Assembly (NCBI GenBank): GCA_037951105.1
Contig: JBAMJV010003765.1
Span: forward strand, 161,501 to 225,500
From: Echinarachnius parma
Lineage: Eukaryota > Echinodermata > Echinoidea > Clypeasteroida > Echinarachniidae
Direction of reading: 5' to 3'
Length of the DNA stretch: 64,000 nt
Position numbers and translations under genes: made by a program
Part shown: piece by piece, positions 2,200-63,710 of the stretch
How the letters are laid out: each line of letters starts with the position of its first letter
Numbering within the stretch: position 1 is the first letter of the stretch
Notes under the pieces: model-generated
What the model was told of the DNA's origin: nothing
Seen by the model: only the letters and a program-made list of their open reading frames with translations
Databases searched by the model: none

Positions 2200-2820
2200 T
2201 GTATAACTTCCAGTCTTCAAGACAAGTTACAAACTTGAAGTTAGTGGCTAAACATAGCGATTTCAGTTCCAGGGAATGTATCAAACTGAATACTGCAGCG
2301 AAAGATTCATGTCTAGAGCTTCTTAGTTTATTACAATCCAATCGCTTTTGTCCAGCTGTGTGGGGGAGAATCAAAATTATATTTATTGTCGCGATTCGGC
2401 AGTACTCGACAATAATATCCATACGCACAAGACGTACTAATAAGAAGTGGCAAAGAACTTGATTTTATGATGATGAATATAGCCCAAAATCGGCATAATA
2501 TTAACCTTCAAATCATTGGTACAGATATAATAATTGATATGATATGATAGTTTGCAATATTGAAAGTTACCCCCAAGTTAGATTTTATATCACTTATGCC
2601 CTAATGTGTATATTACAATGTCATACATACACACACAAATCACTCTGGTCACTTCACTACTAAAGTTGGTCACGATCGATCGCCTACTTGAGTATTGGGA
2701 TGAGTGACTGGCTACTGCGATATATTTGCCTTTTATATAGTTAGATAAATACCTCTCCTAATTGACATGGTCAAAGGCGATAATGTATAGGAATAGCCAG
2801 ACAAATGCTAGTTCATGTAT
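2200..2820. other. fold-back interior, non-coding
   Basis: Continues the subrepeat-like sequence to about 2260 and then AT-rich DNA. Overlapping 78- and 87-codon frames on opposite strands at 2192-2462 look like chance: no domain or compositional bias supports either. Confidence 0.5.
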
Positions 2821-4480
2821 GGCTCCTTTCACACGTCGACCCCGAAGGAACTGGTGAAGAATAGAGACACCTTCATAAGGACATCAGGACTGGCCCAGCA
2901 GTCATCATACAGCTCGTGTAAAGTGATGTCGAGTCCTTTCAATGTTAGGTTGGTGGCGCATCTCCCTAAGAATGTTCAGTAGCGATATATAATCAACGTC
3001 CTCATCTTCAAGATGTCTGCATCCAGATTTTGAATACTCTCCATCGCATGCGCTGTATAGCTTCAGCTACCAGCTTGTGTATCCTGATGGATCAGCTGTG
3101 GTGTTTCCCATGTATAACACTGCCAGGAGCAGCCCTTCTATCCGATTGTTTACCAGTCCAGCTTTAACAAATCTTTGCCCAATGGCTCGGAGGAAGCAGC
3201 ATGGGATATGAGGCTTCCCAGTATGGAAAGGACGAGCGCAAACTCTTCTGGATTTTGTTAGAACAATTGTTCTATTTGGCAATAGATCATCTGGCATGGT
3301 CGTTTAGCTGGTGCAGTTCATTTGCCATGGCCATCTTCTAAGCAGTGTGCACACACTATACAGTCAACATTTCAGTTTTGGAGTTGCCCTGTTCTTCTGC
3401 AGCAAATCCGCTTCAACTTTGAACTGATGATACGTATTTGCTGTCATCCCAGACGATGATCGTTTCCGAGGACGGCATCCATAGCAGACACCACCAAAGG
3501 TGTTTTTTTTCTTATTGCAGTAAGCAAACGCTGCTTCTGCATGCATCCACTGGTCTCTATTACCCTTGATCACACATGGAGTTCACCACTGCCGTCTGTG
3601 TTTCTTCGACGAACATTCGTTCCTTGTTTGATACGATGTGGTGTTCATGATGTTGGTCGTGGCTCACTCGGCATTACTAGCATCATTTGAGGGTCTTAAA
3701 CAGCATGTGCTGACAGTCTCCTAGGCTTCTGGTACAGTTGTGACATAGTGATCTTGCAGATCAAAATTGTCCCAGCAAATTTTTAAAAATACGTTGGGCT
3801 TGTAGCGTGGGAGGAGAGGTCAAGATTTTGCCACATTATATGCCTCTTGTACCATGCGTGTAAGACAAGGCTGTTTACTATGTAATATTATAGAGTAATA
3901 ACATTAACTGATCTACCAAATTTATTGGGAGAGTCGGATGATTCTGTGTCTTCACTAGGCCTATGCTGACAGCATGAATGAGATCCTGCCAAATGCTCAA
4001 AACCTGCCAGTGAGTTACAACAGTGTCACCGTATCTTGCTTATCTACACCCTCGTTGCTATAATGGATGATGCAGACCAGAATGTAATACATCCGGGTAT
4101 TACCATGAAGTTCCTTCAGATGGTCCATGACCGCCACCTAGTATGTTCAATCACCAGCATCCACCCTCTCTAACCACTGAAGACCGTTCCATCCTTCTCG
4201 GCATCTTAGGAAAGGGTCCACCTCATGGCAAATTGCTCCTTACAATAAGTACATCAGCCAAGACTTCATCACATCAATACTACTATGCAGTTGATCTTGC
4301 CATCTTCTGCTAAGGCAGCCTTTGCTCAAAAGGAAATGATAGTCTGGCAACGGAAATGGTCTTGATAGCAAAAGACCTATTACATTGGACACAAACACTG
4401 GGCGCTGCAAACCGACTGCAATTCGCCAATGAAGCAAACTTCCATCTCATAGCCAACGTCAATGGGTCTACTCTGCCCTC
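2820..4480 (-). pseudogene. decayed coding sequence in the fold-back interior (unidentified)
   Basis: On the minus strand, stretches with protein-like composition are separated by stops and frameshifts: 3297-3067 (starts MPDDLLPNRTIVLTK, later CFLRAIGQRFVKAGLVNN), continuing after a stop into 3060-2890 (CDGEYSKSGCRHLEDEDVDY) and then, shifted, into a frame containing LHELYDDCWASPDVLMKV; also 3573-3364 (Cys-rich, AEAAFAYCNKKK) and a segment near 4500-4240. The overall GC content is above that of the flanking DNA. This fits a dead transposon protein or a captured host fragment on the minus strand. I recognise no transposase signature (no DDE, RNaseH or helicase motif) and assign no function. 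Confidence 0.35.
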
Positions 4481-4497
4481 CAACATATCTCAGGGTA

Positions 4498-4703
4498 CCG
4501 TAGAACACCATCGTCAAGCACCCCCAAGCACCAATATGCATCTTGCTTTTAAAGAGCGCCCGCTCTCTGTCACGAATGCAAAGAATGCAAATAATTGTGA
4601 GGAATATTCATGAGGATAATAATGGAGGTGAATCTCATGGAAACGTCTTTAAAAGCAAGATGCGTATAGGTGCTTGGGGGTGCTTGACGATGGTGTTCTA
4701 CGG
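4498..4703. mobile_element. 206-bp MITE with near-perfect inverted halves and TA flanks
   Basis: Starts 'ccgtagaacaccatcgtcaa' and ends with its reverse complement. The terminal repeat runs about 65 bp, interrupted by a few mismatches, around a short A/T-rich centre. TA dinucleotides flank both sides (4496-4497 and 4704-4705), as for Tc1/mariner-type insertions. It lies inside the fold-back element, so it inserted later. Confidence 0.8.
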
Positions 4704-4709
4704 TATATC

Positions 4710-5950
4710 GAGACAGGCAGTTGACCTAAAAATAACACCTTGACTACCTACATGCCAACAACTGCGTATGCTGCATGGTAGGCCCTTGTGGCATGAAATG
4801 TTCATCTATTATATTACATTCTTGTCTATAAGACATCATAATATGAAAACATCCAAGCTTCGTGCTGAAGCCCATGAAGTGCCCATGCATGTAAACTAGA
4901 TGTCACACTCAATATTGAGACCACGAGATTAACTTCAGGATTTGCCCACCAGCTTTGCACTCCCGGTGCTTCACAAGGAGCATCACAACAAGAAAGTGGT
5001 TACCAAGGCACCCCAATCATCTTCGTCTGGTACTTGCCCAGCACGCGCAAGTGGGTCACCAATGCCTGCGCTGCTCTAGTCACCCTGTCAGCCTATTAAA
5101 AATGGGAATATCAGCACCCACAGGTCATGGAAAGACGTCTTGCAACTAACCCCTCGGTCCTCTAAATGTGCAGTCACACGCAAAATGAAGCTACCACATT
5201 TTGCAGACCTATCATGCAGAGATTGGAGTATGCTGAACATGCAGCGTTCACACCACTTGGGCCTATTCAGACCTGCGGACGCATGCATAATATGTGGCCC
5301 ATATCCGAGCTAAATGCCAACCCCATCGTCTGCAAAACAAAACATTGTTTGCCAAACCGGTAACCTAAACCCAAACCTGAACAACATTGAACTTGACATA
5401 ATGTTTGTGTGACGTCGCGTAGACTATTTGCTACCTTATACGTCAGAAGAACAGCACTTCACCAAGTGCCACCCATATATTTACAAGCAAATTCATCTAA
5501 AACTTAAGTTTGTGACCTTTCCCTGACCATACATTCCATATTGATGGAGTTACACTGTTATACAATGTCCATGTGGCCAAGCTGGAGAGGAAAGGAAGCT
5601 CCAGTAATGCCCTAATTGCTTAACCTAGCACCTCTATGTAGAACCCTGGAACAAATCGAGCTTCTGGCTACTGCATGATTTTCTGGTGTTCTGCCTTCAG
5701 AATTCCACTGCCCATAATGGGAACCTAAGGCAAAGGTCATGCAATACCGTGTGATTAACGCCAATTCGCCATGGAATTTTATGATTGTATTTTCCATAAA
5801 CCAAGGTTAATGGTTTTACGATTTCTCTATTTCTATAAACTTTCAAAATTTTAAATTTGATGTTTGGTTAGGCATACGTAGACGAACAAACATACATCTC
5901 AATAAATTATGGTAGGAAGTCAAGTTCATCACATATAAACATGAGTCGGC
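4710..5950. other. fold-back interior, no gene recognised
   Basis: Moderately GC-rich (about 45%), with overlapping open frames of 60-66 codons on both strands (4955-5363 and 5612-5797). None carries a domain I recognise and both strands score alike. It may be further decayed transposon coding sequence. Confidence 0.4.
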
Positions 5951-5954
5951 ATTT

Positions 5955-6330
5955 TTTATTTAGTTTTGAGAAAGGAATCCCCTCAGAAAATGAAAAATCA
6001 AGTTTACACAGAAGTATGCAGTGGTTGCTAGGGAAAATGTATGTTGCTACGAAACACTATACTTTTTTCTTTTTTTTAACTTCAAAGTCATGTCTGACGG
6101 CCAGACACCATTTTGCTTTTCCATTTTCAGTAATTTCATCAAAGGAAAACACATGTATTTATATTCACAATGATTGCACCATTTGTATAGATCTTTTTTG
6201 CCAAATTCCATTTGTTTTCCTTGTGGAAGGGGGTGTGGTCTATTTAGTGCTGGTTTCCGTAGTGATTCTTATTCTTATTAATTTTGAATTGTGATTAGAG
6301 TTGCCGAGTGACAGTCAATCACTTTTATCA
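5955..6330 (-). repeat. second, diverged copy of an arm segment
   Basis: This stretch resembles 7495-7830 of the right arm in the same orientation and, in reverse complement, about 1140-1390 of the left arm: 'agaagtatgcagtggttgctaggga', then the 'cattttgcttttccattt' block, then 'aagggggtgtggtctattta'. It is clearly more diverged than the two arms are from each other. A 117-codon frame at 5941-6294 runs through it and is not a gene. Confidence 0.65.
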
Positions 6331-6824
6331 AAGAAGTAAAACCAGGTGAAGATGGCCTCTATCCTGGTATACTGCTAAAGCACATGTGTTCAGCATCCAA
6401 ATAGTATGTGCTTCCCCAACAGAGTTAAATGCCACTTGGCACCTCTTACCCTAAATCAAAACACTAGGAACTGGAGAGACCATTATATGGATAATCACAA
6501 CTTACAGGGAAACAAATCATAACATTTTGCACTTTGTATTAAAAAAATTAATGTATATAAAAACCTATGCCTTTAAATGTACATGTAAGGAATTGACAAA
6601 ATCCATACAATTTGTATACAAATTATGTTTTTAATCAAAATAAAGGCAGAAAATATGTGGTAGGTATTTCTAACACCATTAACTATACCCCTTTTGGTAT
6701 GTCATTAACTAATTTTCTTTAAAATAATTATTATAAGATAGACAAAATAGTGTAATACTTCTAAAGATTTGATCAAAAAGTGCTTGGTCTAATAATTTTT
6801 TACAAGGCTGTAAATCAAAGTATA

Positions 6825-8493
6825 CATGCGTATATGATTTGTTTGTATCTGAAAACATATGTTAACACACTTATTTCAACTTTATATCTTGTCTAGAAGC
6901 GAATTTATACCAAATATGATGTTATGGCGGCCATGTTGAAACCTATAATGACTGTCATCTTAGATTAGGATACTTACTTGACTTAAAACATCTCGGTATA
7001 CGTCAAAATGATTTTCTTGTACCCGAACACATATGTTTGGACACTTATTTGAACTTTCTAATCTGTCTAGAAGCAAAGTTATGGAATAATCACTTTACAA
7101 CGGCGGCCATTTTGTACTGTATAATGGCCGCCATCTTGGATTAGACGTTTCCTTGAACTTGAAACCTTCATACGATCGTTTTAAAAGATTGCTCGTATCT
7201 GAAAACATATATTTTGACACTTTAATGAACTTTCCAACTTGTCTATAAGGGAACAAGTGGAAGAAAATAAAAAATGACGGCCATTTTGGACGCCATCTTG
7301 GATTCTGCCAAACCCTCAAATTTGATTATAGGGGACCTAAAGTGTGCTATTCTTCACACATTTCTGGACCTATCCTGAAAATTGTGGCTAGTTCATAAAA
7401 ATATCTGGGCTTTACCTAACTATTTTGCCGAGCTATTGCACCACAATGGAATCTATTATTTCTCCAAGAGGCATGTAACATAAAATGAAGAATCAAGCGT
7501 TTACAGAAGTATGCATTAGTTGCTAGGGAACATTTATGTTGCTAGGGACCATTTATGTTGCTAGGAAACATTACTTGATAACTATCAACTTCAACTTCAT
7601 GTTTGCCGACCAGGCAGCATTTTGCCTTTCCATTTATTAAATACAATACAATAATTTCATCATAGGTAAACACATCGTTAAGTCTACAAAGGTTGTAAAT
7701 GAGTAATTTTTAAATTCCAGTTTGATTCCTTGTGTAAAGGGGGCGTGGCCTATTCAGCATTGGTTTCTATGGTGATTATTCAAGTTGCGGCAATTTAAGT
7801 TGTTATTTTCAATAACTTCAGACAATTCCCTTAAAAATGAGGTTTGTTGTTACTTTAATCCATCCAGGTACATTACAATCTAAAATGTTGGCTCTTGCAT
7901 GTCATTTATTGCGCATTTCACACACTTTGCAGCATTCGCATCAAACTAGTTGCCATAGCAACGGTTTATCAATTTAGCCTTAAATGGTATATATGGGGTC
8001 CTGGACCTCATGCCTTCCGAGGAAATCACATTCAGCCATATACACCGTAAGAGTAATGAGTAATGTGAGTTTCCATGAATTACATACAAATATCAATGCA
8101 ATTAGAAGTTAGGAGTATGTCACTGTCCTTGAGTTGACCCCTAATGACCGCTAATGACCTTAGCAATAATGTTTCCTACTTGATATTCTAGAATCTGATA
8201 GCTGGTACAACACTCATTAGTCCCTGAAAAAATCATAAACCTATGATGACTGGATATCAAAATGTTTTATTTTTTGTCGACATTTCGTTTTTTAGTGGAA
8301 TCCACCGTTTCTGCGGGGTGTATTTGACCATGTGTCACAAAAACGGCGTTGCCATGGTAACGTGCAACTTTTTGGGGTCGAAAATTCCAGTTTCGGATAG
8401 TTGAGATTTGTACCTTTACAATGATACCAGAAATAGTTGGCCGTCCGAGGGGTGCAGCCAAATCGATTTTTTTCGTCCTCGGCTCATGGACTA
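6825..8493 (-). repeat. right inverted arm of the fold-back element
   Basis: Reverse complement of 443-2090. X-box-like palindromes recur at 7949-7962 (GTTGCCATAGCAAC) and 8348-8361 (GTTGCCATGGTAAC). Overlapping open frames at 8267-8758 lie across the arm and its flank and have no recognisable domain. Confidence 0.85.
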
Positions 8494-8794
8494 TAGGAGA
8501 GAAATGCCAGAGTCTCCTGAGCCATACATGTTTAATAACGTCATACCCTTGCGGATTTATTCCCAATTTAGCCGTGATTTATTATTCACAATGCAGATTT
8601 TTCGTCAAGGTCTACAAATCTTCTCCCTCACGCGCTTATATGTAATACCTGTCCAAGTAATGAATGCTTTTGGCGGAAGATTCCCGATAATTAAATTATT
8701 TGAACGGCAACCTCATCTTGCGCAGGTGTCCTCTATAGATCATATTTCATCCCTTTAGCTTAATCCTCAGATGGATTTTCTTCCCTTTTCGAGA
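8494..8794. other. non-coding, nothing recognised
   Basis: Ordinary AT-rich sequence between the fold-back element and the minisatellite. A frame of 116 codons that starts inside the arm extends to 8758 but has no supporting feature. Confidence 0.45.
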
Positions 8795-9172
8795 ACAAAA
8801 TATGGTGTGTCGCAGTGTGAACATGCTGTGTTTCACAGTGAAATATTCTGTGTTGTATAATATGGATCACAGTGTGAACAAGCTGTGTATCTTCTTATGG
8901 ATAATAGTGTAAACACGCTGTGTATCGTCATGTGGATCACAGTGTGAACAGGCTGTGTATCACAATGTGTATCACAGTGTGTTCACACTGTATTTCACAA
9001 TGTGAATCACAGTGTGAACACGCTGTATTTTACAATTTGTATCACAGTGTAAACATGCTATGTTTCAATCATAACCATACCTGCCAACCAGTCCGATTTT
9101 GTCGTATTTAGTCCGATTTTTTACTCAAAAAAGGGTACAAAATCGGACGAGTACGATTTTTTAAGTCTGAAG

Positions 9173-9264
<92 letters not shown>

Positions 9265-9600
9265 CTTAATATACATGTGCATATAAATACACACATACAT
9301 ATTCAGTGTGGTCATATGTTGAAAAATAAGGCTAAGATAGCACAAGAGAGCATCTAGAACCGCTCGTGATGCGCGCTTCGCGCTCGTGATGTGCGCTTCG
9401 CTCACATGAGAGTAAGATTTTTCATTTTCAAATGTTGGCAGGTATGCATAACAGTATTTTGGAACACTGTTCACACTGTACTTCACAATGCTGTTTTTAC
9501 CATGTGGATCACAGTGTAAACACAATTGTGAAATGTTGGTCACTGTTTGAACACACAGTATTACACAGTGTTAACACAGTTTTGCAATGTATAAAGTATG
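8795..9600. repeat. minisatellite, unit about 36 bp (CACAGTGTGAACACGCTGTGTTT-like)
   Basis: About ten degenerate units alternating 'tcacagtgtgaaca' and 'gctgtgtatcacaatgtg' run from 8795 to 9069 and resume at 9453-9600. The unit is itself partly palindromic (CACAGTGTGAACAC / GTGTTCACACTG). The array is split by a transposon at 9076-9446. The reading frames here (for example 8920-9111) merely follow the repeat. Confidence 0.85.
9076..9446. mobile_element. 371-bp non-autonomous DNA transposon with a 6-bp target duplication
   Basis: Perfect 13-bp terminal inverted repeats (catacctgccaac at 9076-9088; gttggcaggtatg at 9434-9446) are flanked by the direct repeat cataac at 9070-9075 and 9447-9452, inside the minisatellite. 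The centre is an A run of about 46 (9173-9218) followed by TCAA and a T run of about 42 (9223-9264), which would fold into a long A:T hairpin. The body has 'gtccgatttt' repeats and a 'gcgcttcgcgctcgtgatg' segment. The poly-A/T centre creates a false frame rich in Lys and Phe at 9121-9543. Confidence 0.9.
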
Positions 9601-10105
9601 TGAACAATTCATCACTTTCCTGACATTAATGTTTTATAAAAAAGAAAGTTCTAAATCTTATATAGAGAGGGTGGTTTCAGTTTCCCAATTTGTTTTTATT
9701 TTGAAGAGAAAAAGCCTGGTTTGCTAAGACTAGTATTCAGGATTGTCGAATATATGTTTTTTGTGGCGAGATGAAATTACACTGCGGGCAGTGGCCAAGT
9801 AATGTGATTTATGTAGCGTTGTGTTGTTCGCGGGGTCTTCCCTTCACTTTTTTCCTGCTCGTTAACCTTTCAAACATAAATAAAAATACAAATCTGAAAA
9901 TCTCAGCCTTCATGCATACCGATAGATGGTAAACTGCTGTATCTTATCTCTCTATGTCTTTCCATTTATGCCGTGTTTTTAAAATTTTTATCAAGACCTC
10001 TCCTTTATTTTGTTTCCAATTGTGACAGCCGAAGAAAAATGTGCTTAGAAATGTGCAGGTGAAAGGGAAATGTAACCTCTGGCATGTGATCATTTCTAGA
10101 AGAAT
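9600..10105. other. non-coding, nothing recognised
   Basis: AT-rich single-copy-looking DNA with no open frame of interest and no evident repeat. Confidence 0.5.
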
Positions 10106-10106
10106 T

Positions 10107-10262
10107 CACCCAATGCCTGCAGGAACCCGGTGGGCCCTGTATAAACTCTATGGGAATTGCAAATTCTAGTAGGGAACAGGTTAACCCATTGCCTACGGGG
10201 AACCGCATGGTGGGCCCTGTATAAACTCTATGGGAATTGCAAAATCTAGTAGGGAACAGAAT
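10107..10262 (+). mobile_element. two adjoining family-A TTAA micro-elements
   Basis: Two units of about 77 bp (10107-10184 and 10181-10262) of the form TTAACCCATTGCCTACGGGA ... GTAGGGAACAGGTTAA. The junction has only one TTAA (10181-10184), shared by both. The ends are imperfect inverted repeats (TTAACC plus about ten partly matching bases). Other copies lie throughout the window. Family size, TTAA flanks and short inverted ends suggest piggyBac-type miniature elements, which is inference. Confidence 0.75.
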
Positions 10263-10264
10263 AC

Positions 10265-10900
10265 TAGGAATGTAAAATCTAGGTTATCAATGTATGTGTA
10301 CATTTCTTTGCAAAGAATTGTCATTAAGAAATGTTTCCTTTGATAGACCCTCCCTCCCTCCTCAAGTCTTTAAGTGTCTTGGCTATCGAAGCATACATGT
10401 ATATTGATTTGGGGAATTAACATCCTTTGCAAACGAATGTTGTGATGTAAATCTAGGTTATCAACGTACATGTATATATACTTTTTTTTAAGTGAAGGAA
10501 TGTGTTTAGGAACTTTCTCTTGTACAACCGTTTCTTTAATGAAGACCTCTGAGCTATAAAAGTATATTGATTACTGGGGAAAACATCATCCTTTGCAAAA
10601 GAATGTCTCCCATGAAAATCTGGGTTTTCAAGATACATGTACATGTATGTTTAATTCTCTGCAAAGAAATGCCATTTTGAAATTTCATTTGTCTTCTTTT
10701 AAAGGAAAATTCTACATCATGAATTACCCAGGAACATTGTTTTTATTGGATGGAATAAAACCCTCTTAAGCAATTAAATTGTATTGATTTTTTGGGAAAA
10801 AATCATCCTAAGTTGCAAAATAAAGTCTCTAATATAAATCTGGGTTATCAATGTACATGTACATTGTTCTGTGAAGAAATACAAGAGTGAATTTTCCCAT
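10265..10900 (+). repeat. degenerate tandem repeat, 4 units of 170-220 bp
   Basis: The anchor 'aaatctaggttatcaatgta' and variants recur at about 10270, 10449, 10618 and 10838, each followed by 'ttctctgcaaagaaatg' and later 'tattgatttggggaaaa'. Unit lengths vary through indels. No gene is present. Confidence 0.7.
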
Positions 10901-10959
10901 AACATTTCTCTTTCTTTTTTTTTTAGCAATTGGTGACGAAAGTATAGAATCTCCTAGTA

Positions 10960-13030
10960 TTATTACATTCTGTAGCAAGCACACTCAAAGAGCCGAAGAA
11001 TACCCGGTGGAATGATGTTTTGATTAGAAATGAATTTGGGGTAGGATTTGCAATCTGATGCGTTCCACTCCTTCAAACACAACTACCCCCCCTAGGCAGA
11101 TCAGAATCTATTCGGTTACGTGCATTTGTTTTGTTTTGAATTTTTCTAATTTCCCAAATGTCTTGATTCTATCCTGAGATTACGCGCTTTGCATTCATGG
11201 GGTTCTAACTGTCTACACGTTCCTACGAAAACCTGCTAAAATCTTTGGGGAAATATTGGAACGGGGGAATATTTATAAGACCACATCAAATGAGGATTTG
11301 ATGAAATAAAGACCTACTGTACTGTATACTTCCAATAGTTCTGTGTATTCTAAATGTTCAATACTCTAGAGTGGAGTAGTCCTTTGTAAGAAAACAATTA
11401 TTGATTGATTGTGATTTCAGTGCTTTTGGTAACCAGAGAAATCTTGCTAGAGCGCTGTTTTTAATTTGAAAGAAATTTAGGCCAGAATTTGAAACCAGAT
11501 ACATTTAGCTCCTTAATACTGCACAAACATGCCTCAGGCACCAAAAATGCATCCCTTCTGTTTTGTTGATTATTTTGTTTTGAATGTTGTAATTTCCCAA
11601 ACGTCCGAGATTCTATCCTAAGATTGCGTGATTTGAATTCATTGGATTCCAGCCTATATTTTGATGAAGTCCTGCCAGAAATCTTTGGGGAGATAAAACG
11701 AGGATTAAATGCTATAATGACAAGACTGGAAATGACTGTGTTAGACTACTAAAATAGTGTGGTGTATTCTTTTCGCTAAAGTAGAATAATCTGATAATGT
11801 TGTTTCATCCTTAAAAATTCCATTGATTGATGATATGAGTGCTTTAGGAAAAACTGGAGAAATCTTGCTGGAGCAAACCAGGTTTTAATTGGAAACAAAT
11901 TTTGGGCCATATTTCGAAATCAGATACATTCAAGTCCTTTTTCCACAACCGCGTGCTTCGGGCGGCATTGATAATTTTGTTTTGAATTTTGTAATTTCCC
12001 AAACGTCCGAGATACAATCCTAAGATTGCGTGATTTGCATTCATGGGATATTTTTATTAAGTCCTGCAGAATCTTTGGGGAAATGCAACAAGGATTAAAT
12101 GCTATAAAGACCAGAGCGGGAAAGACTGTGTTCTACTATAAAGGGAGTTGTCACATATCACAGGACAGCTTAACCGGACAACCAAAGGATAAACAAAAAT
12201 GCAAAAACAAATTATCTGCTGGTGAAAACTGTCTCCATTGCTTCATTCAAAAAATATTCTGCCAGATAGAACAACGTACGTCGCCTGACAAGGAACGGAC
12301 AAGAAACGCATACGTACCGAAACAAACGGATTGAAAAAGTGGTTCTCTGTTGGGCTTCCTTCCGTTTAATGCTATCCAGTGATATGTGACGAGGGCTTAA
12401 ATAGTGTGGTGTATTCAAATCGCTAGCGTAGAATAATCTCATAATGTTGTTTCATCCTAAGAAACCCATTGATTGATGATTTGAGTGCTTTTGGGAAAAC
12501 TAGAGAAATCTATCTGTAGAATGGTGTTTTGATTTGAAACGAATTTGGGCTAGGATTTGCAATCTGATACATTCCACTCCTATCTACACAACCATGCCTT
12601 TAGGCAGCATACATGTATCCATTCCGTGGTGTTGGTTTGTTTTGTTTTGAATTTTGTAATTTCCCAAATGTCCTAGATTCTATCCAAAGATTAAGTGATT
12701 TACATTTTTCTGGATTCTATTCAGTGTACATGTATACAAGCTCTATTTCTTTGACTTTAACTTTCCCTAGGCTCTGTAGAAATTTGAAATGGGACAGGAA
12801 ACTGTATATCGAGTGAGTTGAGGAATTGCTAATGCTGCCCCAAAGTGCTCATTTTCTGAAGTAATCTTTAAACCCAGAGGGCCAAGATGAACTTAAGTCT
12901 GACTTGCATTCATTGCGAAACATTAAGGTTTTGTTTTGTTTTGTGAGAGATGATTTCAGATTCGTCTTAAGACCAAATCTGATTCTTTACTCAGATTACA
13001 TAATTTGCATTCAACGATTTCTTCTATTTC
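10960..13030 (+). repeat. degenerate tandem repeat, units about 410-440 bp
   Basis: A block containing 'tttgttttgaattttgtaat', 'ttcccaaacgtccgagattc', 'gcattcatgggattc' and 'atctttggggaaat' recurs with starts near 11130, 11570, 11975 and 12640, and a remnant near 12960. The third interval is longer because of a transposon at about 12138-12400. The first and last full units resemble each other most in the segment 'gcaatctgatacattccact'. Confidence 0.75.
12138..12400. mobile_element. about 260-bp MITE inside a tandem-repeat unit
   Basis: Inverted pair gtcacatatcac (12150-12161) and gtgatatgtgac (12379-12390), extending with partial matches to 'aaaggga' and 'gagggctta'. Comparison with the preceding unit shows that the whole segment is extra. 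Overlapping frames on both strands (12026-12442) are not genes. Confidence 0.65.
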
Positions 13031-13480
13031 ATTTGCATAGGAGTAGACACCAGAGAAATCAGAGAAATGAAAAGAAAAATGTAATATGAGAATTTCATCT
13101 TTCATAAAATCCTTACCAGAAGACTTACGTTATTACCATAATGCAAATGCATGTATAGAGAAACAACAAAGGACATAAGAACATTAACTTAACAACATAA
13201 CTTTTTTTTCTCAATTGAGACTAAAAAAAAAATAGAAATTCATATCAACTGACCACTTCAGCAGAAAATACACATCAGCTGCACACATGTTATACATTAC
13301 ATGCAGAAACATTTAATGCACATTACATTTTTTTGTAAACCCTGACTCCGATACAGCCTCCCTTTGTGTCTGGAAGTCAATTTAGTACCGCCACAGCTTA
13401 ATTTCCAATAAATTCTCATCAGCTCAAAGAATCGCGTCCCAGATGATGATTCATGTTCTCACTCCTTGGTACACATTCAA
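13031..13480. other. non-coding, low-complexity patches only
   Basis: AT-rich sequence with short T and A runs (13201-13233) and a 'gcacattacatt' repeat-like segment. No gene is seen. Confidence 0.45.
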
Positions 13481-13487
13481 TTATATC

Positions 13488-13770
13488 AGTGTGCGTGTGT
13501 GTGTGTGTTTGTCAAGTGTGTATGTGTGCAAACACGTAACTCTTTGGTACACATTACATTATGTCATTGTGTGTGTGTATGTGTGCGTCTTGGTGAGTGT
13601 GTGTGTGCATATGTGCGTATGTGTATGTGTGTGTGTGTGTGCATGTGTGTGTTCTTTTGTGTATGCGTGTATGTGTACATGTGTATGTGTGGATTTCATC
13701 AGATAATAGTTTTCCTAGATAAAAGTGTGTCTTTCAGGTTGTGTATGTGTCAGTGGGTGTAAGGATATCA
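13488..13770 (+). repeat. GT microsatellite / GTGTATGT-rich tract
   Basis: Interrupted (GT)n and GTATGTGT runs over about 280 bp. A 70-bp segment ('cttggtacacattcaattatatca' and 'tttggtacacattacattatgtca') is duplicated at the start, each copy leading into GT repeats. The Cys/Val-rich frames are artefacts. Confidence 0.9.
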
Positions 13771-13996
13771 AAAACACATGTGGCGGTTATTGCGTGGCAG
13801 TGTTTCGCAATCTACTCTAGATCATAAGCATATATCTACTGTATATAGTTACATACTCATTTTCCCCCAACGTGGCCATCCTTATGATTCATAGCATTAT
13901 TCTCATATAGGATTCTAATGTTTTTGTTTTCCTTTTCTTTCTTCTTTGAGCTATGGGTAGGAAAGAATGCTGACATCTAGCCTAACACTTTGTGCT

Positions 13997-14091
13997 TTAA
14001 CCTGTTCGGGACTGACTGATTTTGCTACAACATATATTCTCCATAGACCCAAGCCCGAGTATTTTCGAGACTATAGTCCTGAATAGGTTAA
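13997..14091 (-). mobile_element. family-B TTAA micro-element, intact (95 bp)
   Basis: TTAA at both ends (13997-14000 and 14088-14091). The inverted ends are aacctgttcgggactg and the complement of tagtcctgaataggtt. The inner signature 'attctccatagacccaagcc' and 'gagtattttcgaga' recurs, in either orientation, in about ten copies across the window. Confidence 0.75.
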
Positions 14092-14099
14092 TAACAATA

Positions 14100-14700
14100 G
14101 CTTATATTATATGACCTATAAAGATACTGGTGTGCGATTGGTCAAAATGATGTCACGTGACCATCGCTACAAGGATGAGAAGCGTTATATTGACCGACCA
14201 GTCAATATAACGCCGTTATATTGACCGGTGACGTAATTTACGTCACAATGGGTGTGTGTGAAGATGAACAATGTGCATCCTGGCACGCGCAGCGTTGTTA
14301 AGCTTTCTACAGAGATTGCGCGATCCGAAAGTAAATTTGAAAGGACGGTCGAATAAAGAAGCATTTTGCGCAGCATTTCGATAACAACACGTCTGTTCTA
14401 CTGGAAGGATTTCGATTTAATCTAATGATTTTCCCTTGTCCATAATTTTATTTCAACACCAAATTTATATTTATCTTGATTTGTATCTATATAGGTCATC
14501 ATAATATAACAGATATTGACTTTTTCCTTCGGGAACCATATAACATTTCATTTCCCTTGGGGAGTTATATTTTTGTCTCGGAATACTATATTTTTCCTCA
14601 GCGCTACGCGCTTCGGAAAAATATAATGTCCCTCGACACAAATATAACTTCCCTCGAGGATCTCAAATGTTATATTGCCCCTCAAGACAGTCAATATCTG
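14100..14700. mobile_element. stacked-palindrome element(s)
   Basis: Three nested inverted pairs: 14101-14120 against 14486-14508 ('tatattatatgacctataaa' type); a perfect short palindrome at 14182-14213 (stem gcgttatattgac); and a long hairpin at 14511-14699 whose arms start agatattgac, contain TTATATTTTTGTCTCGG-like blocks, and meet at GCGCTACGCGC. The layout suggests a MITE with a second hairpin element next to or inside it. TTAA and TA flanks were not resolved. A frame at 14476-14736 reads through the hairpin and is not a gene. Confidence 0.65.
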
Positions 14701-14711
14701 TATAATATCCA

Positions 14712-15923
14712 GACTTCACCCAGAGTGATCCCGTAGTGTAATAGTTTCACGAGTCTAAACGTGAAAAGTACTGAAACATATTGATTGATTTTTAATTAAT
14801 AGTTTATGTACAAATTTATCATAAGACATCCAAGGTTCCAATTACAGTATTATGATTAAGGCAGTACATGTACATGTACATCTAGTGTATTAACTACAAT
14901 CTATTAGAAATTAACGAGAAGAAGAATGGTCCCCGGGGAGTAATCAATTTGTTGTGGTCATTTGCAAGGTGCTTAGAGTTTATGAATAATTACAAGGGCG
15001 GGGGATGCCTTAAAGGGCTTAGTCCCCCTCTCTGCAAGATGATGCGGTCTTTGTTCAAACGAGGCATCATGCAGTGATATTTGTTGGGGTTGTGTGTGTA
15101 ATGGGGCTGTGAAAGCAATTAGACTTAATTAGTCAGCCCCAGCGGTGGGGGAGGTGGGAATTTGTTTGCCTCTTTTTGTCCTTCTACCCCACATTTTCTT
15201 ACTTTTACACTCCTTTTCCCCTCCAAAATTATTCTCATATAAGCAGAAGTGTAAACCCATTCAGCACTGGGCCCCCAAAATAATAGGGTGTGTCTACATG
15301 GAGAAGAATGCTTTACCAATGTCAAACAGTTTTCTATGTGTTAACTCACACAGGACTGGTTCTAAAACATACTTTGGCTTGTGTCTTCAGAGGATAGGTT
15401 ATACCACAAAGTTAATGTCAAGTATTGTTAAACAAAATAATCCCATTACAACTGGTAATTGATCAAGGTTTTTGTTTTGTATTGTTTGATAGTATTGTAA
15501 GTATTAATCTATAGTTGATGAACTTAATTACTTGTCTATGTGAGAAGATGATAAATTGTGTTCTCGCTTCCTCCGTTTCTTTTTCTTTAAAAAAAAGATA
15601 ATTTGTTTGTTGGCGTTAATCCTTTGGGAGCATGTGTTCATGAAATGACATGCCATCTGTCTACAAAATTTTGGCCAGGTTTTATTTAAACCCGTTCATG
15701 GCTGGTCCCTCCAATTATAGATCATAAATGTGGGTAATTATACCAAAATTGAACGAGTCTTGGTTAGGTTAAAGATCTATGCATTTTATTGCTTTGAATG
15801 GTGTATAATTTGTACTTCTGTTTTGAACAAAGCCAGAAACGGTAAAAGAAGTCTTTTTGTTTGTTTGGCATGTATGCATATCCTTATTTAATTTTAAATT
15901 TAATCTAAACCATAGCACATGAA
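14712..15923. other. non-coding, nothing firmly recognised
   Basis: AT-rich sequence. A family-B-like piece ('aacccgttcatggctggtcc') occurs near 15687. A 105-codon frame at 15145-15462 has no domain and no splice context that I trust. G-rich stretches at 15000-15030 and 15140-15160 are short. Confidence 0.4.
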
Positions 15924-27030: not shown

Positions 27031-27774
27031 TAATCAGTCTGGTATCAAAAAAGATGGAAACGATCAATTATTCTGTGATTTTCATGTACTAGTATCCAGT
27101 CAGAATCATAGTATTCAAGAGAAACCCATGAATATACCATGATGTCTACGCAAAAAAACGTACATCATTCATTCATTCATTCATTCATGTCCCCCATAGT
27201 TCATTCAACTCCTCGCGCGAATGTGCCTTGCACTTTTGCGGCTCATCCATACCATACCCCCTTCCCCCCTCCCCTTCTCCCTTTCCCCAGCACATTATTT
27301 CTGCATCTCTTCTCCCCCTGATGAACAATAATCATGTTTGATTTGATGTGGATGTGGTTGCGGTTGGGAGTTTGGACAATTTTGTCTTCGGCAGCGTGTA
27401 CAATTTTTTATCTGGGGATATTCCTTTGTCTCTTTCCGCGCTCGCAGTGATCCTCTGAAAAAAGGGCTCAACGTGATGATAATTTTTCGTCAGTTAAATT
27501 GCTTTTGGTGGGGAAATAGTAAGATGATTATGCCAGTGATATACTTGAGATCTACTACCTTTAGTCATGATGATTTCAGGATTTATCGATATTCATTTGC
27601 CACGCCATATTCTTATTTTGTTAGTTTTGCTGTTTTATTGCATCTTCAGGGATATTATTCAATGATGAACTTTAAATCCCGCAGTTCAAGTTCATTTGTA
27701 GGACCTTTCTCCCCTTCTCTTTTCCCATTTAATTTGTTTGTGGATTGCAGTTGTTCTTGTGGTTTAGGTATGTT
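27031..27774. other. non-coding; (CATT)n and C/T-rich patch
   Basis: (CATT)n at 27165-27190 and a C/T-rich stretch at 27245-27310. A 140-codon frame at 27473-27895 runs into the GT microsatellite and has no recognisable domain. Confidence 0.4.
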
Positions 27775-28440
27775 TGTAAGTGTGTTTATTTGTGTGTGTT
27801 GTGTTGTGTGCTTGCGTGTATGTGCGTGCATGAGTGTGTTTGTGTATGTGTGTGCGTTTGTAAGGACCGTCAATCGCGGATACACACAAGTTTAAACACC
27901 GGCAAAACGGGGATATTCCGGAAACCGGGCATATCCCCGGTTTCCGAACAGGGGGGTATAGTGCTTCATGGATCGTCTTAAGGGCTGTACTGTATGGTAT
28001 TCTGATTTTTTAAGGATATCCCTTATATGCCCGTTTTGCACGTTTTTTTATATAGTGGGTGTATAAGTGTGTGTGTGTGTATGCAAGTGAATGTGTGTGT
28101 ATTTTTAAACCCGCAAATGGGGCATATTGCCATGTTTACACACCAGCAAACCGGGGACAAGCCAAACATCATTAAACAAACGGGCATATCCCCATTTGAA
28201 GGTGTTTATAACATTGTGTGTACCATATCCCTGATTGAAGGCTCTTACAAGAATGTGTGCGTGTGTGTATGTATGTGTGAGCATATTTTTGTGTGAGTGC
28301 ATATAATGTATATATGAGTGTGTGTCTTGGGTATATTTGTGAGCATGTAATTTGTTTAAATTTGTTACAGTTATGTGTGCATGTATGTATGTTTGTTTTG
28401 TTTTATTTGTTTGTGTGATGTGTATATATGTACAGTTTCC
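27775..28440 (+). repeat. GT-rich microsatellites with interleaved 'catatccccggtt' blocks
   Basis: Three GT runs (27775-27865, 28060-28105, 28250-28345) alternate with blocks carrying 'ggggatattccgg', 'ggcatatccc' and 'caccggcaaaacggg', which occur in both orientations. All open frames follow the repeats. Confidence 0.7.
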
Positions 28441-30430
28441 CCCCCCCCCCCCCCACTATTATGACTGTGATTTTGGATTTGCCCATCCATTTACTCACAC
28501 ACATCAACAAAAAATCCTATACTCCGACCCTTCTCACCCCTCCGCTCTTTCTCTCTCTCTCCCCCTCTCTCTACCCCCCCATTTTATGAATTTCTGCTCC
28601 TCAAAATTGGATTTGGCAATAATTCCGATTGGCAGAAGATTAAATTTGGCAATGTCAGGAAACTTGGAAATTTTCTAGAACTGACCACACCAGGCCACTG
28701 AAGGGATTGGGGGATATTAAGTCATTTGAGAAACCTCCAAGGTGCACTTTTCTTCCCAATTTGTCTAATGGACATCAATTTGGGTCCGATTCCGAGTCGT
28801 TTCTTCAATTTGGCTGACCCCTGTGTCAAAATCTATCTACAGTTGATGTTAACCTATTGACTCAAAATGGCTTAAATTTCCACTATTAGTTAACAGATAC
28901 AGTGTATAGCTATTTATTTCCTTTTTTTGTCCCTTTCCAATTTCTATGTCTCTTATCTCTTTTTTTTATTTTACTACCCAAGGGCATTTTGTTTGTACAT
29001 TGTTTTTAAAAACAAAATGATTGTTGTATAAATAATAGATTCTTTATTTTATTCTAACTATCTGAAAATTTGAAAATCTCCATCAAACTTCATTGAAAAA
29101 ATAAACTAGTAATTTGAGACTTAATTTACATCAATAAATACTTGCGTCTACTTTGTTTTTGTTAGGCTCTATACCAAAGTGCTGTTAGATAAAAGGGACA
29201 AAACATTCCCCTTTTATAATCCCTTAGAAATGATGCAATCTGGAAAATGATGAAAAGAAAGAAGAGAAGAAAAAAGCAACAACACAATTGCAAAGGTTTA
29301 GGATGTTTTCTTGTAACTTTCACTTTACAATGTACAGTATGCATGTATGGATTACACCAGACACATTTCTTGCATATTTGTGAGGTAAATTTCATGTTTT
29401 GGTGCCTGTATGTAGTAGTGATATCTTACACCAAAGGCATGCACTGTAAACTAAACTACACTAAATTACATGCACATGTATATGTGTCAAGTGGTCTACA
29501 TGTTTTAACATGCCTTAACCAATAACATGCCAAATGTATATTGGCTATGTATACATTGAATGTGTTGTAGTATGTCTAATATTTACGAAATTTGGCATTG
29601 AAGGGAATACAGTACATTTATGTATTACTGGAGTGAAAAACTTTTTTTTCTCGCTTGACTGAGTGAAATCTACCCTTGGAGCGTTGCGAAACTGTCAATC
29701 AATTTGTACCAATTATCAGCGAGAAGTTTCCATCATATGGACGCTTGCAAGACAAAATCTGATTTGGGAAAATATCCCTCGAGGGTTTCACATGGTGTTG
29801 ACTAATTCTTTTATGCTTTCCTCACAAATTATGGATCTGACAATTTTGGAATTCCTTTACATAGAGACACCACAGAGAAAAGAAACCATTTTATAAGATA
29901 AAGAAATAACTGTCAGTTTATGCGATGGAATGTACATTCTATGTTGTTACAAACGTCAGCTGGTATACAGTATGTGATAAATTTTGTTTTTAATTTTGAA
30001 AAAGGGAGGAAAAGGCTTTTGAACGATGCAACAGAAAAAATTTGTCCTTTTTGGCTAGAATTCTCACGAGCTGGTAAAATTTAAATCTAATTGAAATTTA
30101 AAATTAAAAGTGGGTTATTTCAAGCCTTTATGGTTAGGTTTGAATAAAAAGAGTTGCAGTTAGCATGAAATAGTAAAATCATACCATGTTGACAATTGAT
30201 TGAACATCAGTGTGGCTCATATTATAATACCAAACTTTTATTATTGTTTATGGATAAAATGTTGTCCAACACAAACTGAAATTACTGACTTCAAGTTATA
30301 GGTGAATTGAATGAATTTGAATAAATTTTTCTTTGTATCTGTGCCTTTATTTATGTATTACTTGTATTATAAATTACAGTTCTTTACATTTAACTTTCAA
30401 TGACAAGCAGTAAAAACTATATACAGTATA
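28441..30430. other. non-coding, no repeat array recognised
   Basis: A C run at 28439-28454, CT-rich tract at 28550-28580, then 1.8 kb of AT-rich, apparently single-copy DNA. Frames at 29162-29525 and 29663-29896 have neither domains nor convincing splice borders. This is one of the few long stretches without obvious tandem structure. Confidence 0.45.
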
Positions 30431-30485
30431 TTTAACTCTGTTTTTCTTCCGTTTCTTCTCTCTTTTCATTTTACAGGTAAGATGT
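30431..30485 (+). promoter_or_regulatory. candidate recursive-splicing (ratchet) site
   Basis: A pyrimidine tract (30438-30470) leads to TTTTACAG directly followed by GTAAGA, with the junction at 30476/30477. A branch-point-like TTTAAC lies about 43 nt upstream (30431-30436). An acceptor abutting a donor with no exon between them is the hallmark of zero-length exons used in stepwise removal of long introns. The orientation matches the exon at 63647-63710. Chance occurrence cannot be excluded without RNA data. Confidence 0.45.
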
Positions 30486-31200
30486 AATTCATTTCATTAA
30501 AGATCTCAAAGTTCTGGTTTAAAGGAATCTGGTAAGTTTTGACAAAATTCATAATACATATTTTGCTTTGCAAGGACCCAAGTGTCTTTATTGTTGTGTA
30601 AACCGTATTCTGATTTTTCTGGAAAAACAGCTTGTAGCAGACAAGGGCAATCCATCACAAGAATGGAGAATCAATATATAGATTCATAGATAGATAAATA
30701 GATAGATAAATATATAACTGAATAAATGAATAAAATAAATAAACATCAGTTTCAGAAATACAACTGCATATAAAAGCTCAATCGAAAAGTGAGAAAATTG
30801 GAACACAAGTAAAATGATACTCCCCTTCTCCAGCCTCACTCTACTACAAATTTCTCCATGAATCCGTAAATTTATCCACAATTTTCTTTCGAAAGAGAGA
30901 GTATAGCTCGGCATGTTAAGGTATGTTTGTGGTGGATGGATTTACCTTGATTTGCGAGTGATAAAGCCGGCTGAGAAGTTGAAAGAGATATAGATTGAAT
31001 AATGCTGGAGATGTAATCGAGCAAGAGAAAAGATATAATCACAGATAGAGAGAGGGGGATGGGGGTGGAAGAGGGTATTACAGTTAGAGTTCTCTAAGGA
31101 TAGTCAAAGATAGAAAAGGAGAAAAAAACTACGAAAAATTTGATTGAATTGTTATGCTATGCATGCTACAGGAGAGATTCCACATGAACATAATGAGGGA
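30486..31200. other. non-coding; short GATA/AATA runs
   Basis: GATA/AAAT simple repeats at 30685-30745. Otherwise AG-rich on the + strand towards 31100. No gene. Confidence 0.45.
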
Positions 31201-31450
31201 AGATGTGAGAACAAAACTGTAGACAGGATGAAAGATAATGTGAGAAAAACGAAAGGAATGTAGCAAATTCAAGTGATTGAATCTTACTGCCATACACACC
31301 AGAAAAGAAAACAAGATAAACTAAACAGATAATAAAAAAGGTGAGCCTCTAAATAAAAGAAAGAATAAGTGAAAATGTGAGGAAAAAACTGAGAAATTGA
31401 TCAAATAAAAGTGATCGCATCTTGCTTCCAAACACACCGGAATAAACTAT
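31200..31450 (+). repeat. degenerate two-copy repeat, about 165 bp apart
   Basis: 'gtgattgaatcttactgcca' with 'acacaccaga' near 31272 and 'gtgatcgcatcttgcttcca' with 'acacaccgga' near 31410, each preceded by a 'tgagaaaa' segment. Confidence 0.5.
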
Positions 31451-31504
31451 GATGATGGAGAGAGAGAGAGAGAGAGAGACAGACAGAGACAGAGAAGGCA
31501 TGGG

Positions 31505-44412: not shown

Positions 44413-44900
44413 GGAGGCTCCGTAGATTCCTCCCCCCCCCCCCCCCCCCCCCCAAAAAAAACACACAAATATCTGAAGATCTTGTTGCCCGATCACGGCA
44501 ACCAACACCTCCAGCCTTTTGCATGATATTTCCTCAACATTGTGCATTAGGTAATTACAACATCTCTGATTGCCCCGGGGCCTTTACATAACACGATTAA
44601 CGACTCTTTGACAATCCAGTTTGTTATTCGAAACCCGTCTCATTCTCAGAAACCAGATAGGAGAGGAAATAAATTGCAGAAAAAAATGGAAACATTAGTT
44701 TTTCTTTATATTTTGGTATTATTATTATTCTCTTTGCTGTCTCGTTCCTCTAAAAACATACTTAGTGTCCTTCCTTTTTGTTGTTTGTATGTTGTTGAGA
44801 TCTTTGCCCTTCTTTTGAGTAACTTACAACCTTACATTTTTTCTCATTATTCTAGTTTGCCTTTTTACTCTTTCTCACCAGGTTTGGTTCACCATGATTG
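44413..44900. other. non-coding; C/A runs
   Basis: C run at 44431-44453 then A run. Frames at 44336-44591 and 44608-44901 are compositional or lack domains. Confidence 0.4.
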
Positions 44901-46110
44901 ATCCTTTCCCCCCTTCTTTTTGAGAAATTGTTTGATGGATGTATTGGAAAAAAGGGTGATTAGAGAGAAGTGATGATTATGTTTCTCTCTTTGTTTTATT
45001 GTGTTTACATTTTTTCTCATTATTCTAGTTAACCGGTATTTGCCGGTGTATAAACCGCACCTGTGTATTCACGCGCACCCCTTTTTGCAAGTTCTTCTGT
45101 ATGGAAGCGGTTAATACACCCAGCAAAATACGGTAAGTATTTTTAATTCTTCACTCACGCTTCTCACGCCCTTTCATATTTTGTTTTCCTCTCTCTCAAA
45201 GAGTCTGTATATATTTCACCATGATCGATGGCTCTCCATGTTTTGTGAAAATATTTGATAGATCATGTTGTCGGAATAGTGATCAGAGAAAGTGCATGAT
45301 GTATCTATGTTTTCATTCTTGGTTTAGTTGTGATATATTATTCGATCTTGAAGAAAAAAACCCCCTGTAAGTTATGTATGTATAGGACAGTGTGAACTTT
45401 GGCAAAAGGTTGAGAATAGAACTACTGAAAAAGTTGAAATTAGAGAGAAAAGATGATAATGGAAGGTTTGTTTGACTTCCTGAAGATATTTTATTACATT
45501 TGTATTGTATTTTATGCGCTTTTTAAAAGGTTTTAGTTGTGTTGTATTCAATCTTTAAAAAAGCTCTGTAAGATTATAGGATATTGGACCCAAAGGAAAA
45601 GGTTGATAGCAGAAATATTGACAAGTTTGGGGGAAAAACAATAAAGGTCTGATGACATTATTGAATATATTTTTTAATGCATTTTGACAGTGTTTTAGGC
45701 ACAGTTAAAAGGTTTTAGTTGTCTTACTATTCAATCTTTAAAAAAGCTCTGTAAGTTATAGGATTTTGAACCAAAGGAAAAGGATTGAATAGCAGAAAAT
45801 ATTGACAAGTTGCATTAATTGGGAAAAAATATCAAAGGTCTGGGTGACTTTGTGAAATATACTTTCTAATGCATTTTTAACCGTCTTTTTAGGCACTGTT
45901 GAAAGTTTAGGTTGTGTCATATTTGATCTTTAAAAAGTTACAGGACATTGAACCAAAGCAAAAGGCTGAGGTGTAGAGATTATGAAAGATTATAATCAGG
46001 GGGAAAATTGTTTAGAGGCTGGGTGGGACTTTCTTGAAAATATTTTCTTGCATTTTCATGGTCTTTTGTGCGATGTTGAATGTTTCCCTTTTGTGGAACA
46101 TTCAAATTAT
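44900..46110 (+). repeat. degenerate tandem repeat, about 190-bp units
   Basis: 'aaaaggttttagttgtgttgt', 'ttcaatctttaaaaaagctc', 'tgtaagttataggat' and 'gaaccaaaggaaaagg' recur near 45325, 45530, 45711 and 45903. More diverged copies begin at about 44915 and 45235, separated by a MITE. Confidence 0.7.
45029..45136. mobile_element. 108-bp MITE (TTAACCGGTATTTGC ends)
   Basis: Left TTAACCGGTATTTGCCGGTG followed by 'tataaaccgcac', right complement TTACCGTATTTTGCTGGGTG and 'tattaaccgc'. Inverted ends of about 32 bp. Confidence 0.75.
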
Positions 46111-46806: not shown

Positions 46807-47175
46807 TTATTTGTTAATATCAATAAAAGTGTAAGGGAAGAGGAAAAGAGAAATATCATAAGTGGAAAACTCTGTCAGGGACATTTCATCATACAAGAGT
46901 AGTCGTAGGGTCAATGGTCCAGAAAAAGAATTACAGAAACCTCCAAACCACTTGACTGGCCATCTCCACCACTCCACAATGTCTGGCCGGTCACTCCAAT
47001 GTCCAGGGGGCTCTATCTCTCGTCTCATCTTCCGCAGACACGCGGCGCTGGCGGTCGGGCAGTCAGGGTTGGTATGCACGGTGTATGGGTCAGCTAGATA
47101 GCCGTCCAGCAGCCCGGCGACAATTGATACGGGCAGTCCTTGTGAGTCATTAGGCGGAATGGATTGAAAATGCAT
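46807..47175 (-). other. coding-like patch on the minus strand (unidentified)
   Basis: A minus frame of 122 codons starts near 47175. Its first two thirds have G/C-rich third positions and balanced residues (IPPNDSQGLPVSIVAGLLDG, CLRKMRREIEPPGHWSDRP, VEWWRWPVKWFGGFC), unlike the AT-rich surroundings; the last 40 residues look non-coding. CAAATAAA, a possible polyadenylation signal, overlaps the stop. A weak acceptor-like CTCACAAG precedes GLPV. Against it: a diverged relative at 46567-46620 does not keep the frame. I do not recognise the protein. It could be a last exon, a decayed transposon gene or chance. Confidence 0.3.
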
Positions 47176-63646: not shown

Positions 63647-63710
63647 AGAGAAGCTGTCTGTGGCTCGCCTACAGAGGGAGCTAGCCAAGGCAAAGACTGA
63701 AGGAACAATG
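63647..63710 (+). CDS. internal exon, coiled-coil-like peptide
   Basis: A pyrimidine tract and TCATTGCAG precede the exon; the donor is ATG|GTGAGT at 63711. The only open frame starts at the second base (phase: one base completes an upstream codon) and ends on a codon boundary: EKLSVARLQRELAKAK then TEGTM, 21 codons. Heptad-like Leu spacing and many Lys/Arg/Glu residues suggest part of a coiled coil or long helix, which is inference. The GC content is about 53%, well above the surroundings. No other exon of this gene is found in the window, so its upstream intron may extend over much of it. The gene is not recognised. Confidence 0.75.

Follow-up and report, generated by a model that had tools for sequence, protein, structure and literature searches.

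A candidate recursive splice site with a 55-nt cryptic exon in a 79-kb intron of a probable NCKAP5-like gene from Echinarachnius parma

Where an acceptor and a donor are directly joined around AG|GT deep inside a giant intron, the question is whether the intron is removed in steps. The locus considered here poses this question for a 64,000-nt stretch of Echinarachnius parma DNA (the window), which corresponds to positions 161501 to 225500 (+) of contig C3764 (324.5 kb); positions below are those of the window unless the contig is named. In flies and vertebrates, a recursive site is now taken to open a cryptic RS-exon, which is defined via a downstream donor and is then skipped through use of the donor regenerated at its 5′ end (PMC8605326 and PMC6224609). 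We lean toward reading 30431 to 30537 as a ratchet point, a recursive splice site within an intron, that carries a cryptic RS-exon of 55 nt, and its sequence signals make it a good candidate for this already known mechanism.

In the original prediction, a strong pyrimidine tract, TTTTACAG, and GTAAGA were said to be directly joined at 30476|30477 downstream of a branch-point-like TTTAAC, and both elements were confirmed in the sequence. The junction reads ...TTTAACTCTGTTTTTCTTCCGTTTCTTCTCTCTTTTCATTTTACAG|GTAAGATG..., and TTTAAC lies at 30431 to 30436 on the + strand, with its branch-point-like A 42 nt from the AG end; weaker branch-point A candidates are located 9 and 4 nt from that end, and the 3′ splice sites of both neighboring coding exons likewise have branch-point candidates at 41 to 48 nt. 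The polypyrimidine tract together with the C at –3 spans 30437 to 30474, with pyrimidines at 19 of the 21 positions from –4 to –24 and no AG from –40 to –3; it is followed by the AG of the recursive 3′ splice site (30475 to 30476) and the recursive 5′ splice site GTAAGA (30477 to 30482), all on the + strand, so that 3′ and 5′ splice-site motifs are juxtaposed around AG|GT. All acceptor and donor scores given here rest on approximate splice-site matrices. By these, the acceptor (12.4) and the donor (11.3; 11.34 in its genomic context) sum to 23.7 bits, which ranks first among the 349 AG|GT sites in the window (169 on the + strand and 180 on the – strand), the next site reaching 16.7. The same score was attained in 22 of 5,020 strand-windows from 2,510 whole-window dinucleotide shuffles and in 26 of 3,926 strand-windows from 1,963 shuffles in 500-base blocks; the chance is therefore about 0.9 to 1.3% per two-strand window, a figure that, taken alone, is suggestive at most.

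A second strong donor, CTG|GTAAGT, is found at 30531|30532 (30532 to 30537), 55 nt 3′ of the junction, and the locus is therefore a 55-nt exon-like unit (30477 to 30531) and not a bare zero-length exon. The zero-length exon proposed originally thus survives as a real AG|GT junction, recast by the downstream donor as the start of an RS-exon candidate. This donor scores 10.9 (10.92) in the contig and 11.5 (11.49) as CCG|GTAAGT in a haplotig, and the donors at 30477 and 30532 both rank in the top four + strand donors of the window. Most fly recursive sites have a 5′ splice site within 100 nt downstream (PMC6224609, available text), and the one observed here lies at +55; fly cryptic RS-exons measure about 50 nt (PMC8605326, available text). 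The unit contains stops in all three frames, and its inclusion in the joined reading frame would break that frame, with a stop straight after the junction codon (...NTRR*). As a plain acceptor-donor pair, it ranks 2nd of the 246 pairs in the window; the top pair (24.0, – strand, 31998 to 31860) has both its acceptor and its donor within or next to a local repeat that is present twice. What sets the unit apart is its AG|GTAAG start, not the pairing of acceptor and donor.

The placement of the junction in sense orientation within a giant intron holds, since phase-matched + strand exons were found on both sides of it. The downstream exon, EKLSVARLQRELAKAKTEGTM, lies at 63647 to 63710 (contig 225147 to 225210, exon lister score 23.5), and the upstream exon of 68 nt lies at contig 146098 to 146165, 15.4 kb before the window starts; the intron therefore spans the site on the + strand, and the contrary case, a host gene that does not reach across this point, was tested and was not borne out. 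As defined by the exon pair and its phase, the intron runs over 78,981 nt (contig 146166 to 225146), beginning 15.3 kb before the window and taking up window positions 1 to 63646, and the site divides it into 45,811 and 33,170 nt, at 58% of its length. The phases match, in that the 68 nt of the upstream exon and one base of the next complete a codon, and the joined exons read cleanly into EQMAHQIEELNRQVVEERQNTRREKLSVARLQRELAKAKTEGTM. The downstream exon had been described as the only clear one; no other coding exon in the window could be tied to a gene, but the + strand open stretch at 47038 to 47141 scores nearly alike (22.4). The latter lies in the host intron, and its open frame does not suit the upstream exon's phase.

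The host exons were taken from the 70 best nonoverlapping exon-like open stretches of the whole contig. On the + strand, they form a series at contig 146098 to 146165, 225147 to 225210, 237483 to 237686, 238217 to 238303, 255372 to 255506, 270828 to 270866, and 284268 to 284378, which encodes a coiled coil and then large low-complexity stretches, and the gene probably extends to about 319.8 kb of the contig. The seven joined exons match what we take to be the N terminus of human NCKAP5, an approximate query on which the gene name rests, at 97 of 233 positions (42% identity, E 3e-48), and the alignment runs ungapped across the junction between exons one and two; this similarity makes the host a probable NCKAP5-like gene. 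When the coiled-coil exons were compared with Pfam and PDB, NCKAP5 was not among the matches, the best of which was bZIP_1 at 25.1 bits, below its cut-off of 27.6. The Pfam family NCKAP5 (PF15246) matched nothing in the genome but also nothing in any of 14 control genomes, and this null result is therefore uninformative. A search of the contig for the first coding exon, 5′ of contig 146098, yielded none; the best match (contig 133506 to 133589) was dropped, its surroundings resembling a dispersed repeat by eye. Toward the other end, an exon starting at contig 315079 begins with GTGAGAG behind a good acceptor (20.0); it is probably a coding exon of the host gene and, judged from its sequence, an expressed RS-exon candidate. 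NCKAP5 is not known to be among the human genes with recursive splicing, and we found no open-access literature that joins recursive splicing with NCKAP5.

Farther upstream on the same strand, contig 2803 to 15377 encodes a kinase domain (PF07714, 3e-14) together with a GS motif that falls slightly short of its cut-off (20.8 versus 21.3), as would suit a TGF-beta type I receptor-like gene, and open stretches at contig 28070 to 30557 resemble a retrotransposon pol region by eye. Elsewhere in the genome, COX1 on contig C14600 contains 12 TGA codons; compared with Pfam COX1 under different genetic codes, it scores 510.1 bits with table 9 (the echinoderm and flatworm code), 509.3 with table 24, 507.6 with table 4, 496.5 with table 5, and 496.3 with table 13, and the reading of ATA as Ile is therefore well supported. 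The reading of AAA as Asn concerns a single codon, at which the best PDB match has Asn. Taken with a resemblance to sea urchin COX1, the gene points to an echinoderm as the most probable source, although hemichordates and other groups would also be compatible with it.

By analogy with the fly and vertebrate literature, the spliceosome would define the small exon between the 3′ splice site at 30476 and the donor at 30532. The upstream exon (contig 146098 to 146165) would be joined to 30477, with 45.8 kb removed and AAG|GTAGCA turned into AAG|GTAAGA, and the regenerated donor would in turn be joined to 63647, the RS-exon leaving together with the last 33.2 kb and the mRNA keeping no trace of it. 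The upstream exon's own donor, AAG|GTAGCA, is weak (4.69), and the donor formed by joining to 30477 scores 10.48; two further donors among the eight examined in the host gene are also weak (4.22 and 5.4), so that a weak donor alone is no predictor of a recursive site.

The reading that we favor would be undercut if the unit were the product of coincidence, with a long AT-rich intron in which some pyrimidine tract happens to meet a good donor, another donor 55 nt on, and no function for any of them. About 1% of shuffled windows give such a site, and there are many places for it genome-wide; the plain acceptor-donor pair also ranks merely second in its window. The whole contig tells against this explanation. 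Among its AG|GT sites (912 on the + strand and 917 on the – strand), the two top scores both fall on the + strand, namely, 30476|30477 (23.7) and contig 118082 (AG|GTAAGT, 23.8), while the best on the – strand reaches 19.6. The second site lies 74 kb upstream of the first and 43.4 kb before the window, and it too is followed, after 64 nt, by a strong donor (11.1), making a 64-nt unit with stops in all frames; the 301 bases around it match only themselves in the genome by a search that skips common words. It is located 28 kb upstream of the first identifiable host exon, and its placement in the same transcript is putative. Sites of at least 23 number two on the + strand and none on the – strand (0.079 and 0.24 expected per strand-contig), and the same two-to-none split is found when a donor of at least 10 is required 30 to 100 nt on, with the thresholds chosen after both sites were known. 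By chance, such site-and-donor units appeared twice in 1,750 dinucleotide-shuffled strand-contigs and five times in 987 contigs simulated from an order-5 Markov model of the contig's + strand. Two like units on one contig and one strand, against 0.001 to 0.005 expected per strand-contig, thus argue against coincidence. Similarly, 2 of the 106 acceptors of at least 10.5 on the + strand are followed by GTRAG (0.24 expected), compared with none of 90 on the – strand (0.12 expected).

Three other contig sites were rejected as units: contig 160062 adjoins a dispersed element and lacks a good donor in its vicinity, contig 124549 (18.6) lies inside a repeat, and contig 315078 (20.0) is the start of a coding exon. 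The first of these (window –1438; AG|GTAAGC, 21.0, + strand) is within the host intron. Donors of at least 10.85 number 30 on the + strand and 17 on the – strand of the whole contig.

Motif counts over the genome (1.2 Gb, 14,790 contigs) were blind to introns and strand, and their expectations come from Markov models of contig C3764 and are given below as motif and backward control. The fly consensus YYYYYYYYNCAGGTAAGT shows no genome-wide excess, with 31 matches versus 52 for the backward control (44 to 47 and 80 to 100 expected at orders 1 to 3, 94 and 145 at order 4). Y12NCAGGTAAG occurs 29 times versus 19 for its backward control, with several identical strings recurring (12 to 18 and 16 to 32 expected at orders 1 to 3, 44 and 54 at order 4), an excess that is weak at most. 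The strict RS-exon pattern TTTTNCAGGTAAGN{35,65}GGTAAG, which was written after, and to fit, both units, has three matches at two loci, i.e., contig 118082, 30476|30477, and the haplotig copy of the latter, versus five for the backward control (0.9 to 2.1 and 3.2 to 4.9 expected); for the looser pattern TTTTNYAGGTRAGN{35,65}GGTRAG, the chance expectation alone was computed. On the contig, such sites number two on the + strand and none on the – strand, and in the whole genome, introns disregarded, there is no clear excess. The lack of a genome-wide motif excess suits coincidence, and such a site will arise by chance somewhere in a 1.2-Gb genome; the strict pattern nevertheless occurs at just two loci in 1.2 Gb, and these lie 74 kb apart (the pattern having been written with both in sight). 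Weighing these points, we consider it unlikely that the unit is functionless.

The surroundings of the unit were described originally as a 2-kb stretch without transposons. The segment from 27032 to 31457 indeed has no other copy in the window (blastn, E 1e-6), but a repeat dispersed in the genome, about 80 nt long, has its left end at 30622, 90 nt past the RS-exon donor, and reaches to near 30700. This repeat accounts for 38 of the 40 scored genomic matches to 30300 to 30700, and its left edge falls at 30622 in all six genomic copies fetched. The 243 bases from 30370 to 30612 match only their own place and one haplotig in the genome, again by a search that skips common words. The haplotig keeps the acceptor and both donors, with one difference, at 30530. 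Over 3,331 aligned bases, it differs from the contig by 170 mismatches, which are clustered, 4 of them in 30201 to 30600 and 2 in 30901 to 31400; with other quiet blocks nearby, conservation between haplotypes was ruled out as evidence for the site.

A further alternative is that 30477 to 30531 serves as a regulated poison (cassette) exon, which is sometimes included and, by ending translation immediately, directs the transcript into decay, the GTAAG start being secondary or adding an option of skipping. The strong splice sites that flank it and the premature stop upon inclusion both fit, and so does the balance of its donors. Recursive donors usually, although not strictly, outscore the donor of the RS-exon. 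The one here scores 11.34 versus 10.92 for the RS-exon donor in place and 10.48 versus 10.92 once joined, by the approximate matrix; the regenerated donor is therefore no stronger than the RS-exon donor (10.92, or 11.49 in the haplotig) and does not clearly beat it, and a poison-exon outcome is therefore possible. In the available text of PMC8605326, many mammalian RS-exons are expressed, with nine fully suppressed recursive sites and possibly thousands of expressed RS-exons in mammals, and the ratio of donor strengths alone does not settle inclusion. However, an ordinary poison exon needs no GTAAG straight after the AG, an acceptor-donor junction that is itself a roughly 1% event in the window, and a twin unit of matching build lies on the same strand. 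As an explanation of its own, we judge the poison exon to be improbable; it may also be true together with the recursive reading. It is very improbable that the unit is an exon of another + strand transcript (an alternative 5′ untranslated host exon or an intronic noncoding RNA), which its 55-nt length, good signals at both ends, and stops in all frames would suit and to which further + strand exon-like pairs in the intron, at 44882 to 45132 (22.6, no open frame) and 47038 to 47141, lend some color, since the window has no Rfam match at gathering score and we saw no other sign of a separate transcript here.

The recursive splice site with its RS-exon thus remains the preferred reading, and it can be set beside the known systems, described below as they appear in the available parts of the cited articles. 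The Drosophila ratchet points of Ubx, kuz, and Bx (PMC8605326) share with it an AG|GTAAG behind a pyrimidine tract in an intron of tens of kilobases and an out-of-frame cryptic exon of about 50 nt that is closed by a second donor roughly in mid-intron; more than 500 intronic recursive sites are reported in flies (PMC8605326), where they occur in most introns longer than 40 kb and tend toward the midpoints (PMC6110457). In contrast to the Drosophila sites, the regenerated donor here is not clearly stronger, the consensus has no genome-wide excess, and the site is known from sequence alone. In the vertebrate RS-exons (PMC6224609; Sibley et al. 2015, cited there), an acceptor, a recursive 5′ splice site, and a later donor likewise define a stop-containing exon, which is skipped there after donor competition; the present host is not a vertebrate. 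A third comparison is offered by the RP-sites predicted in sea urchin introns longer than 50 kb (PMC2773006), which share the juxtaposed motif, the intron class, and probably the phylum. These were reported as counts with no individual echinoderm site named, at 0.540 per 100 kb versus 0.066 on the complementary strand. The motif enrichment in sea urchin therefore gives a higher prior for a site in this intron class. The earlier impression that marine invertebrates have few known points of this kind no longer fully holds, because the sea urchin ratio of intron to complement, 8.2, was reported in 2009 (PMC2773006, Table 2); the share of annotated RS-exons in sea urchin is similar to that in human (PMC6224609). 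The available text of PMC13105047 makes no mention of invertebrates or sea urchin, and among the open-access titles and abstract openings listed we found no echinoderm recursive site that had been tested in RNA.

The splice signals and their rarity, the intron with its strand and phase, the stop upon inclusion, the single copy, the intact haplotig, and the twin unit are direct observations on this DNA, and with its RS-exon, its twin unit, and bounding exons that match in phase, the candidate is stronger than the original prediction could tell. A bolder proposal, which we offer as a speculation with little probability behind it, is that recursive splicing is a special device of the NCKAP5-like gene. 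The gene would have two RS-exons of one strict build, at the only two such loci found in the genome; the weak AAG|GTAGCA would be exchanged for a strong donor, and a competition between near-equal donors would let the gene toggle between removing the intron silently in steps and being shut off by a poison exon. In echinoderms, which belong to the deuterostomes, introns are long and an older motif count reported enrichment (PMC2773006); the present candidate is well placed and predicts an intermediate, a lariat, and a poison isoform, so that recursive splicing in this group can be put to a direct test.
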